From: Sanguibacter keddieii DSM 10542
GTDB lineage: Bacteria > Actinomycetota > Actinomycetes > Actinomycetales > Cellulomonadaceae
Assembly: GCF_000024925.1 (NCBI RefSeq)
Contig: NC_013521.1
Coordinates: 1,364,001 to 1,428,000 of the forward strand
Direction of reading: 5' to 3'
DNA length: 64,000 nucleotides
Made by a program: the position numbers and the translations under genes. This document shows positions 49,660-53,130 of the stretch, piece after piece; position 1 is the stretch's first letter, and each line of letters begins with the position of its first letter. The notes under the pieces were generated by a model. That model saw only the letters and a program-made list of their open reading frames with translations, was not told the origin of the DNA and did not search any database.

Positions 49660-50686
49660 CTACACGAGCGTCTCGTCGCTGACCCGGATCAGCACCTTGC
49701 CGGTCGCGCCGCCCTCGACGGCGTCGTGCGCCGCGGCGGTCTCCTCGAGCGGGAACCAGGTGAGCGGGAGCCCGGCGTCCTCGCCGACGGGCAGCGCACC
49801 GTCGCGCAGCGCAGCGGTGATGTCCTCCGCGGCAGCGTTCAGGGCGTCGGGGCCGACCGTGTAGAGGAGCAGGCCCTGCCAGCGGGCGTTCTTGATGAAG
49901 CTGGGGACGATCGGGACCGAGAAGTCGTCGCCGTTGTTGTTCGCGTAGTACGCGATGCTGCCGTGGTTGGCGAGCACCTCGACGTCGAGCGCGGCGTTCT
50001 GGGCCGGTGCCACCTCGACCACGTGGTCCACGCCGTCGGGGGCGATCTCGCGGATGCGGTCGGCGAGGGCGTCGTCGGGGTACTGGACCACGTGGTGCGC
50101 GCCGGCAGCACGGGCCAGGTCGGCCTTCGCGTCGCTGCTGACCGTCGTGATGACGGTCGCGCCCGCCCACACACCCAGCTGGATCGCCGCGTGACCGACC
50201 GCCCCGGCGCCCCCCCTGGACGAGGACGACACGGCCTGACAGCGCGCCCGGTGCGAGGCGCGCAGGTCCGTGCTCGTGGACGGTGAGCGCACGGTGCGCC
50301 GTCATCGCGGGCACGCCCATGCTCGCCGCGACGTCGAGGTCGATGCCGTCCGGCACCGGCACCACGCGGTCGACGGGGAGCACGGTGAGCTCCTGGGCGG
50401 TGCCGGTCGGACGACGGTGCGCCGCGAGGTACAGCCACACACGGTCGCCCACGGCGAGCCCGGTGACACCCTCGCCGAGGGCGTCGACCACGCCGGCACC
50501 GTCCTGGTTCGGGACGACCTCGGGGAAGGCCAGGTCGCCCTCGGCGCGCGCCTTCCAGTCGGTCGGGTTCACCCCGGACACGACGACGCGCACGCGCACC
50601 TCGCCGGGGCCGGGATCGGCGACCTCACGGTCGACGAGCTGCAGGACGGACGAGGGGCCGGTGCTGGAGTACGCGATTGCCTTCAT
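49660..50686 (-). pseudogene. Zinc-type NADPH:quinone oxidoreductase, frameshifted
   Basis: Minus-strand gene from ATG 50686. The first frame encodes the MDR catalytic half (NPTDWKARAEGDLAFPEVVPNQDGAG) as far as GRVVLVQGG. The second frame resumes with GGAGAVGHAAIQLGVWAGATV (nucleotide-binding GxGxxG) and runs to the stop at 49660. The break is at seven C residues, 50210-50216; deleting one C restores one ORF of about 341 residues with no other lesion. Either a recent frameshift mutation, phase variation at the tract, or a sequencing error. Confidence 0.85.
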
Positions 50687-50873
50687 GCTGGCGACAAGGA
50701 GCGACGGCGGCGTCGTATTCCCTCGGGTCGCAATGGACGCCAGCCTGACGTCGCGGAGGGTGGCTGAAGAGTGTGCTGAAGGCGGGGCGACGTGGGTGAT
50801 CTGCCCGAGGTGCTGCCGCCAAGGTGCCGTCCGGTGGCCTGCGGCTGACGCCAGCCGTTGCAAACTCGAGTTG

Positions 50874-52079
50874 TCACTCGTCAGATAGCACGTCGGCGAG
50901 GCCCTCCGACCAAGTTCGGTACTGATCGCGCCAGTCAGACCCATCTGCGTCGAGCGTGGCGCGCACTTTACCCCAAGCCCCTCGCCTCTCGAGTCCTTCC
51001 TGGCCAAGCAAAATGACGGCCGTTCGCGGGTGAAGTTGAGCACGACTTGCGATCCGATCAGCCACGTGGTCGACAAGTTGGTCCACTGCGCAAATTGCGT
51101 CATGAACTTCAGGCGCGCTTGGGCGGTAGCCATTGTGAATGACGCGGTTTCGGAGTTTGGCCACATAGAGCCGCCATGCGCCCACCGGTTGGTGATTGTG
51201 CTGTGACGACCATCCTCCTCTTAGTGCCGGGCTTAGAACACTGGCTATGAGTTCGCTTGGGCGCATCGAGAGCGCCGCCTGGCCTTTTGATGACCAACTG
51301 GACCGAAGTTGTGGTTGGTGCTCGATCTGCTCCCAGATAAGTAGACCAGCGGTGGTCTTGATGAGAATCTCGGATGCGGCCGCGGTCTTGAGGGCTGCTC
51401 CCGCGTAGTCGCCGATAACCCTGGCGTCGTTTCTTGCGGCGAGCATCCAGTACCGGATGTTCTCTACTGGATCATCGTTGGCTCCAGCGACGAAATACTC
51501 TTCGGCAGATCTCAACTGCGCTGGAGTTGCAGCGTCCGAGCGCTCGAGCAGTGACCCGTGCTCGCTGATAGCAATGTTTTTTACCTCGACTTTACCATCT
51601 TCATCGCAGTCGAGCTCGATGTAGATCGGATAGATTCGTTCAATTGTGAGGGGTGGAATGCTAGCGTTGGTTGCGATTCTTAGTGCGTCGATCACTCTTG
51701 TCAGGACGTCGAATGCTATGTCAAATGGGTCTAAAGTTTCGTTCTGGTCTCCTCTCTCTTCATAAATGCTCGAGATTGGAACTCTTACTATTCCATACGA
51801 GGATAGACCCGGAATTTCAATGCCGCTAAACTTGCCTAGGGTGACGCCGGGAGAGCCGAGCATCTCTTCGACTATTTCTGAAATCCCGCTGACGGCTTGA
51901 GTGTGATCGATGCCTTCTGTGCGAGATTTCTGAATGATTCGAGCGACAGTGCCTGCGCATCGACTGCCGTCGACGCAAGGCTTAGGGCAGAGATCGTTAT
52001 GTAGATGAACGCTCCATCCATTTTCATCTAGCGGCATGCGGTCCCGGAGGGCGAGGGTGAAGATTCGGTGTCGAGGCAC
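50874..52079 (-). CDS. Low-GC orphan protein with C-terminal HEPN-like RNxxxH motif
   Basis: 401 residues from GTG 52079 (TATCCT at 52088-52093, 8 nt upstream); ATG 52037 would lose conserved-looking N-terminal codons. Residues 25-41 hold HLHND, CPKPC and a further Cys, a possible zinc site. The C-terminal helical part (about 230-345) contains RNRVIH (residues 310-315; 51135-51152), the R-N-x3-H form of the HEPN ribonuclease signature, within KLRNRVIHNGYRP. Base use is AT-rich: 25 of 60 and 27 of 60 G+C at 51721-51780 and 51781-51840, against about 70 percent elsewhere. Probably horizontally acquired; a toxin, RNase or phage-defence role is inference. No partner gene or transposase is adjacent. 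Confidence 0.75.
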   Translation of the reverse strand: MPRHRIFTLALRDRMPLDENGWSVHLHNDLCPKPCVDGSRCAGTVARIIQKSRTEGIDHTQAVSGISEIVEEMLGSPGVTLGKFSGIEIPGLSSYGIVRVPISSIYEERGDQNETLDPFDIAFDVLTRVIDALRIATNASIPPLTIERIYPIYIELDCDEDGKVEVKNIAISEHGSLLERSDAATPAQLRSAEEYFVAGANDDPVENIRYWMLAARNDARVIGDYAGAALKTAAASEILIKTTAGLLIWEQIEHQPQLRSSWSSKGQAALSMRPSELIASVLSPALRGGWSSQHNHQPVGAWRLYVAKLRNRVIHNGYRPSAPEVHDAICAVDQLVDHVADRIASRAQLHPRTAVILLGQEGLERRGAWGKVRATLDADGSDWRDQYRTWSEGLADVLSDE

Positions 52080-52314
52080 GAGTGTCAGGATACGGTCTCG
52101 AGTGCGGTCTTGGGTTAGGGGCGTTAGTCGCTGCGTAGCTACTGGCAATCGAGGCTGTTGTGGTCCGACTAGGCTGGACGACACAGCGCCCAAGGTGTGA
52201 GTGGCTCTGAGCAACGGATCACTCGAAGTGTTGGCTTACGCTTCGCATCGGTCTGGTCTACTGGGGAGCGCTCTCCATCGTCCTCTCCGCGTCAGCCGGG
52301 TAACGTCCGGCGGT

Positions 52315-53130
52315 ATGACCTTCTCGCCCGCTCCTCACGCGCCCGTCCCTCCTGCTCCGGGCGCACCGGCTCCGCGCCGGAGCCCGTTACCGTGGATCCT
52401 CGTCGCGGTGCTGGCCGTCGTGGCTCTCGTGCTCGGTGTGCTGCTCGTCGTCGGCGGTGGCGGCTCGGACGACTCGGAGCAGCAGGGCTTCGCGACGCCG
52501 GAGGAGGCGATCGAGTTCTCGACCGAGAAGATTGCCGACGGTGACGCCGCGGCGGCACTGACGGCGTGGGCCGGTGACGCGCAGGCCGAGAACCTCGACC
52601 TCGTCGGCACGCTCGAGCGCTTCCGGGCGCTCTCACCCGTCGACACCTCGTCGGTGCCCTCCGACGACGAGTTCTTCGTCGAGCTGGGACGGACCACCCG
52701 TGCCGGGACCGCTGCTGACCAGTACCGCCGGATGGCGTTCAGCCTGCTCCTGCCCGAGGTCCGCTACGACACCACCACCCGCCTCGACGGCGGTGACCTC
52801 AGTGCCCAGGACGTCGCCGACGGGCTCGACTCCGAGCGGCTCTCCAGCCTGAAGGCGCAGCAGGTCGATCTCGTCGTCGGCCCTGAGCAGTACGACGAGA
52901 CCCTCGCCCAGGCGGCCGCCCTCGTCGGCGCCGACGAGCGCCGCGAGTACGTCGTCCTCTACGAGTGGGACGGCGACACGTACCTCGGCGGCGTCGGTGT
53001 CCTGCGCTACGGCGACGACTGGCAGATCGACACCCTCGCCGCGTCGCTCGCCAACACCCCGAACGGCGCGCTCGAGCCGACCACCGCCGACGAGTACGAC
53101 GCCGTGGTCGAGGGATTCCCGGGGAGCTGA
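52315..53130 (+). CDS. Membrane-anchored protein with extracytoplasmic domain
   Basis: 271 residues from ATG 52315. A Pro-rich cytosolic head (about 25 residues), one transmembrane helix (residues 28-48), then an extracytoplasmic domain of about 220 residues with FATPEEAIEFSTEKIADGDAAAALTAWA, reminiscent of DUF4878/NTF2-like lumicin domains. TAACGT (52301-52306) is 8 nt upstream of the start. Function unknown. Confidence 0.78.
   Translation: MTFSPAPHAPVPPAPGAPAPRRSPLPWILVAVLAVVALVLGVLLVVGGGGSDDSEQQGFATPEEAIEFSTEKIADGDAAAALTAWAGDAQAENLDLVGTLERFRALSPVDTSSVPSDDEFFVELGRTTRAGTAADQYRRMAFSLLLPEVRYDTTTRLDGGDLSAQDVADGLDSERLSSLKAQQVDLVVGPEQYDETLAQAAALVGADERREYVVLYEWDGDTYLGGVGVLRYGDDWQIDTLAASLANTPNGALEPTTADEYDAVVEGFPGS

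Follow-up and report, generated by a model that had tools for sequence, protein, structure and literature searches.

The locus raises the question of what is encoded by a single gene of unusually low G+C content in the 64-kb window, that is, the whole stretch of DNA analysed. In the initial annotation the gene was assigned, from the motif RNRVIH, to the HEPN RNases, and it was suggested that its product could be a stand-alone, undescribed defence or toxin protein. The evidence from its sequence and its relatives points to a real and open gene, probably an active member of an uncatalogued HEPN family.

Gene and Protein Architecture

The open frame on the minus strand, counted from TTG, extends over positions 50874–52214, and the length of 401 aa applies to the GTG codon at 52079 (Table 1). 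Translation could alternatively begin at the TTG (52214) or at an ATG (52037). In the closest relative, L049, the segment RKYLVALRDGLPVPDEGW is aligned to HRIFTLALRDRMPLDENGW of the window protein; because L049 carries this matching segment, a start farther upstream than that ATG is favoured, and the alignment fits a true start in that part of the frame.

Table 1. Features of the HEPN gene and its product, in window coordinates.
Feature	Position	Strand	Basis
Stand-alone HEPN gene, 401 aa	50874..52079	-	GTG start; stop codon 50874-50876
Proposed sensor: N-terminal region (residues 1-203) of weak conservation	51471..52079	-	Alignment; PDB profile search
HEPN domain, about residues 200-355	51015..51482	-	hhalign to HEPN-T and DUF4145
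E237 codon (acidic and conserved; upstream of RNRVIH in the protein)	51369..51371	-	25/25
Predicted RNase active site RNRVIH (codons of R310-H315)	51135..51152	-	R and H 25/25
Tail following the HEPN domain (residues 356-401); W390 well conserved	50877..51014	-	Alignment

The motif RNRVIH is located, as originally noticed, in the C-terminal half of the protein (residues 310–315 of 401). The N terminus had been described as Cys-rich with CPKPC; CPKPC is present, but Cys31, Cys35 and Cys41 are Cys in none of the 39 relatives, so that a conserved Cys cluster was rejected and the Cys-rich N terminus appears to carry no family signal.

Members of the family are composed of an N-terminal region of 134–319 residues (with the starts as called), the HEPN domain and the tail with W390. 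A further 59–127 C-terminal residues are present in 15 of the 40 members, two of these being cut by contig ends. An extra C-terminal stretch of 105–127 residues, absent from the window protein, was observed in L037, L035, L006, L004, L007, L048, L039, L042, L044, L084, L086 and L090. A profile of the N-terminal region found nothing better than E 1.4 in the PDB; in an insensitive test for its occurrence on other effectors, the same region matched the window's own gene alone in 118 genomes.

Library Searches and Distribution of Relatives

No match to the window protein was found in Pfam (DUF4145, PF13643, included), NCBIfam, PADLOC or PHROGs at E values up to 10, and among the papers listed on HEPN, toxins and phage defence no title or abstract opening concerned this family, mention in supplementary tables being possible. 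The description of the protein as undescribed is thereby supported at the level of these libraries and paper titles. Among its relatives, weak matches to DUF4145 were obtained for one of 11 members (E 0.11) and for two of 20 (best E 0.02), while weak matches of relatives to baeRF_family10, TetR_C_22, DUF6665 and DUF7083 (E 0.11–0.2) were taken as chance.

In whole-genome searches, each of which counted the window's own genome, the window's family gave matches for 3 of 221 genomes. With weak matches included, the counts were 8 of 396 genomes for the order, 12 of 394 for the class and 7 of 396 for the phylum; the phylum and class counts each include three weak matches, and the order and class searches used alignment A1. 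Six weak genome matches (L012, L013, L014, L030, L031 and L032) were left out of the family set. L013 looks like a wrong-frame chance match, and L012 (1441–2409) and L014 (937–1881), both weak matches to the window protein, begin with a zinc-ribbon-like CxxC segment and are weakly similar to PF05168 at the C terminus (E 0.029 and 0.0015, respectively).

One family member was found on each of five plasmid records, from Corynebacterium, Rhodococcus, Gordonia, Arthrobacter and Kocuria. The phage records and viral contigs searched contained no family match, and a phage origin of the gene was rejected on this ground. Genome contigs were also scanned with a pattern that includes the motif, and 34 candidates gave 22 loci. 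Of these records, 19 are titled Actinomycetota and one each Dehalococcoidia, Spirochaetia and Prevotellaceae, the last three being metagenome bins in which contamination is possible. Four of the 22 loci are repeats of known loci, L091 is distant, and L074 and L078, with split or short frames, were left out of the 40-row alignment, which comprises the window protein and 39 relatives. The remaining 15 were found with a pattern containing the motif, and motif counts are accordingly based on the other 25 rows. In alignment A3 the window protein is 17–29% identical to its relatives. In one genome, two divergently oriented family copies adjoin each other (L048, 7927–11296). Overall, the spread of the family is patchy and sporadic, as in accessory immunity.

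HEPN Domain and Catalytic Residues

The assignment to the HEPN superfamily was examined by comparison of profiles with accepted families and by conservation of the predicted catalytic residues. In hhalign, the family domain scored 88.9% against an 18-row profile of HEPN-T (PF05168) over about 100 columns, and 93.4% against a 6-row profile of DUF4145 (PF13643) over 46 columns including the motif. The HEPN-T profile was built from 20 of 30 fetched loci, two of which were empty and 18 used, and the DUF4145 profile from six of eight loci. Reversed-profile controls gave 0.2% for both comparisons and at most 0.3% over all runs, and 11 unrelated protein clusters taken as controls gave at most 0.4%. 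With the motif masked (25 rows), the score for HEPN-T held at 80.5% and that for DUF4145 dropped to 23.9%. When the comparison was confined to the first part of the domain, the scores were 74.5% against HEPN-T and 1.8% against DUF4145. The similarity to DUF4145 depends largely on the motif. For HEPN of the ApeA type the score was 1.1%, obtained with a profile of two sequences and saying little; no match to HEPN_Apea (PF18739) was found in the window's own genome, and membership in ApeA is not supported by these two results, which together form a weak test. A PDB search with the family profile gave no good match, the best being a periplasmic binding protein (E 0.32).

In the HEPN survey by Anantharaman and colleagues, the superfamily motif is given as Rx4-6H, in which the R is followed by a polar residue (in most cases N, D or H), and a conserved acidic residue is described as often located in helix 2 (PMC3710099). 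The set used for comparison contains the window protein and 24 relatives from whole-protein searches, which were not selected by motif. R310, H315 and, upstream of them, the acidic residue E237 are invariant in all 25 proteins, and residue 311 is N in 15 and H in 10 of them. Homologues lacking R and H at these positions, which had been named beforehand as evidence against the assignment, were looked for, and both residues were kept throughout the set. E237 probably lies in helix 2. The acidic motif of the form Ex3[KR] is present in the window protein as E237..K241 and is not general across the family, since the column of residue 241 contains D in 25 and K in three of the 40 rows.

The other called proteins of the window and of the fetched loci contain 68 instances of R[NDH]xxxH in 250,505 aa, a chance rate of about 0.11 per 400 aa; because of this rate a single match is weak alone, and it is the invariance in relatives that counts. 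The pattern of E237, R310, residue 311 and H315 is, at the level of sequence, the published HEPN signature as worded in the survey (PMC3710099). The HEPN reading of the initial annotation is supported by the profile comparisons, including that with HEPN-T after masking of the motif, and by the invariance of R and H. Judged by its sequence, the domain is a HEPN domain, and of the three families compared its nearest are HEPN-T and DUF4145.

Base Composition, Flanks and Origin of the Gene

The G+C content of the HEPN gene is 55.5% (56.7% at third codon positions) versus 72.0% for the window, and windows of 1206 bases outside the gene area have a mean G+C content of 72.4% (SD 1.9 points) with a minimum of 66.3%. 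The two AT-rich 60-bp rows that had drawn attention to the gene were recovered at 51721 (41.7%) and 51781 (45.0%), and they are the sole two of 1066 rows at or below 45%.

On the left the gene is flanked by a quinone-reductase-like gene (49660–50686, minus strand) and on the other side by an apparent small membrane-protein gene, both named by eye. The report of a frameshifted flanking gene proved correct: the quinone-reductase-like gene spans two frames here, and its counterparts in both congeners having it (L068 and L069) each consist of one open frame. The split represents either real decay or a sequencing error.

The first of these flanks was found in two of the five congeners searched and both flanks in one. 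In the congener with both flanks (G205), homology ends at 50727 and restarts at 52390, with other DNA between; the place of the HEPN gene is taken there by an apparent nucleoside (uridine)-kinase-like frame, recognised by eye (L068, 7084–8103). In the congener G203 homology ends at 50726, the left edge agreeing with that in G205. In the tree, the window protein pairs with L049 (support 99/97), which comes from a different family within the class, and the two relatives from the window's own family are placed elsewhere; the branch leading to L049 is long, and resolution is lacking at 11 of the 37 inner branches. Horizontal acquisition of the HEPN gene appears to be the best explanation of its foreign G+C content, the other DNA at the site in G205, the shared left edge in G203 and the tree.

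Flanking direct repeats were considered as insertion ends and rejected, merely short imperfect ones being present at the HEPN gene. Promoter-like and terminator-like sites numbered one and two, respectively, versus 0.4 and 1.2 in shuffled sequences, and none was useful.

Gene Neighbourhood of the Relatives

The neighbourhood survey included 227 genes at 41 loci, with up to three genes on each side and own gene calls. Outside the annotated plasmids the genes were called by a simple caller, which recovered 39 of 39 annotated plasmid genes checked, these being its training genes. No group of homologous neighbours was present at more than five of the 41 loci, which agrees with the characterisation of the gene as stand-alone; the two groups reaching five are of the helix-turn-helix and GntR types by eye. 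Close same-strand neighbours gave 10 rows, and with L090 removed as a two-copy artefact 9 of 79 remain. A loose nucleotidyltransferase pattern matched two of the 227 neighbour genes, neither convincingly. An adjacent nucleotidyltransferase, as in HEPN-MNT systems, was not recognised at the 41 loci or among the window neighbours, the latter judged by eye. An antitoxin or cognate nucleotidyltransferase beside the gene was rejected, given the absence of a recurring neighbour at the 41 loci and the unconvincing pattern matches.

Beside the window copy, no defence gene was recognised among neighbours judged by eye, and no small gene was called except for a low-scoring frame opposite the quinone-reductase-like gene. 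In the related loci L079 (7243–7767) and L047 (10192–10707), a small gene that apparently encodes a membrane segment lies directly upstream of the family gene, overlapping it or about 17 bases off; the small gene of L079 had no match in Pfam. L048 (11331–12778) and L089 (5864–7292) share, near the family gene, a regulator of the GntR type and a gene of one family with about 218 codons.

Genes of defence type were found within two genes of single relatives: a Pycsar pair (L085), SIR2 (L041), a type IIG restriction enzyme (L071), KAP/PifA-like NTPases (L048 and L081), PDC-S21/DUF4917 (L084) and a TIR protein (L050). Three of the five plasmids have a DNA methylase annotated in the vicinity of the gene, together with a helicase in one case and a TIR protein in another. 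The defence-type neighbours were chosen by eye for scanning and represent examples, not a rate. When 10 chosen genes were scanned with PADLOC, eight matched at E ≤ 1e-6, one weakly (L037); two genes of L045 that had been thought to belong to defence matched nothing in PADLOC. Many relatives are surrounded by ordinary neighbours.

At E ≤ 1e-8, 46 PADLOC families were found among 120 neighbour genes from 15 loci versus 12 among 120 control genes of the same 15 genomes, the tallies being of families and not of genes, with several families representing models of one system. Among the 25 of the 46 families that were listed, an IS21 ATPase was falsely called as DrmD, so that at least one of the 46 is not defence. 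Control genes match defence models too, for example AbiEi and PDC-S48. The commonest Pfam families in the 120 neighbour genes are a transposase family (5) and a phage-integrase family (4), and part of the neighbour signal is accordingly attributable to mobile DNA in general.

Proposed Function and Alternative Explanations

A defence or toxic function is suggested by the neighbourhood of the relatives and by analogy. It is fairly probable that the gene encodes a horizontally acquired, one-protein abortive-infection RNase with a sensor-like N-terminal region, for which we infer RNase activity, dimerisation, N-terminal sensing and a phage trigger. The prediction is that the C-terminal HEPN domain forms a dimer and cuts RNA without metal, by catalysis through H315 and R310 aided by N311 and E237. 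The N-terminal 200 residues would keep the RNase inactive or sense infection; on meeting a phage trigger the RNase would be freed, and growth would stop or the cell would die before the phage matures.

The main rival explanation, which is rather unlikely, is that the HEPN RNase acts not in phage defence but on behalf of mobile elements or in the stress physiology of the host (maintenance of plasmids, competition among elements or turnover of RNA). It agrees with the copies on five plasmid records, with transposase and phage-integrase families heading the Pfam list of the neighbour genes, and with the phage and viral records being free of the gene, but known or candidate defence genes adjoin several relatives and the patchy spread resembles that of accessory immunity. 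A toxin of a toxin–antitoxin pair, with an antitoxin that is either not linked to it, or an RNA, or a protein that differs from genome to genome, is a less likely alternative, and its probability is low. HEPN toxins are known in such pairs (PMC3710099), and small genes lie directly upstream in L047, L079, L039 and L051; against this, the neighbour groups are confined to at most five of the 41 loci, with both top groups of helix-turn-helix or GntR type by eye, and the only small frame beside the window copy is the low-scoring one. That the protein is a relic, catalytically dead or in decay, or that the motif arose by chance, is very improbable: identity to relatives is low and a neighbouring gene is split, but the frame is open over the family length with all invariant residues present, and R[NDH]xxxH is expected by chance only about 0.11 times per 400 aa.

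For the abortive-infection RNase a more far-reaching reading, somewhat less probable than not, may be offered, in which the family is a new, rare and widely scattered actinobacterial immune family. Its fast-evolving N-terminal region would directly read a phage trigger and switch the C-terminal HEPN RNase without an antitoxin, nucleotide messenger or partner, and in a subgroup the extra C-terminal domain of about 110 residues would be a second sensing or regulatory part.

Defence systems have been worked out less fully in the actinobacterial phylum than in E. coli. The gene described here represents a HEPN family open to testing, whose member in the window is missed by Pfam, NCBIfam, PADLOC and PHROGs. 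As a single gene it can readily be transferred to laboratory strains, so that a direct search for its trigger and RNA target is feasible, and defence annotation could be extended with a profile of the family.

Comparison with Known HEPN Systems

The protein is a promising addition to a known general kind, the HEPN RNases, from a family uncatalogued in the libraries searched. With HEPN-T it shares the profile match, which persists after masking of the motif. Stand-alone and MNT-fused versions of HEPN-T are listed in the survey (PMC3710099), whereas here the domain ends a protein of about 400 aa and no adjacent nucleotidyltransferase was recognised. The match to DUF4145 is high with the motif included, but the window protein has no Pfam match and the score falls on masking; BxaP, which contains DUF4145, is described as a phage defence protein (PMC10799925).

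ApeA and AbiJ are alike in having an N-terminal domain of their own together with HEPN (PMC3710099), AbiJ being likened by description; for ApeA, the profile of two HEPN domains scored 1.1% against the family. DS-11 of DefensePredictor (CBS-HEPN) is similarly presented as a one-protein HEPN defence (PMC13092281), but contains a CBS domain, whereas the window protein is without any Pfam match. Csx1/Csm6 (CARF-HEPN) is approached by one of 11 members of the family, with a PADLOC match at E 0.0025; the window protein has no such match, nor was a CARF domain identified.

Tha-1 and Tha-2 of S. aureus prophages are similar by description, each being a single protein with no discernible N-terminal domain and a C-terminal HEPN. 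Unlike the window gene, they are prophage genes, and they are described as activated by tail proteins (PMC11087260). By analogy, Tha-1 may be regarded as the nearest worked example: a single protein with C-terminal HEPN and the motif R265NSIMH270, it is reported to defend as an RNase and to lose defence with H270A (PMC11087260).
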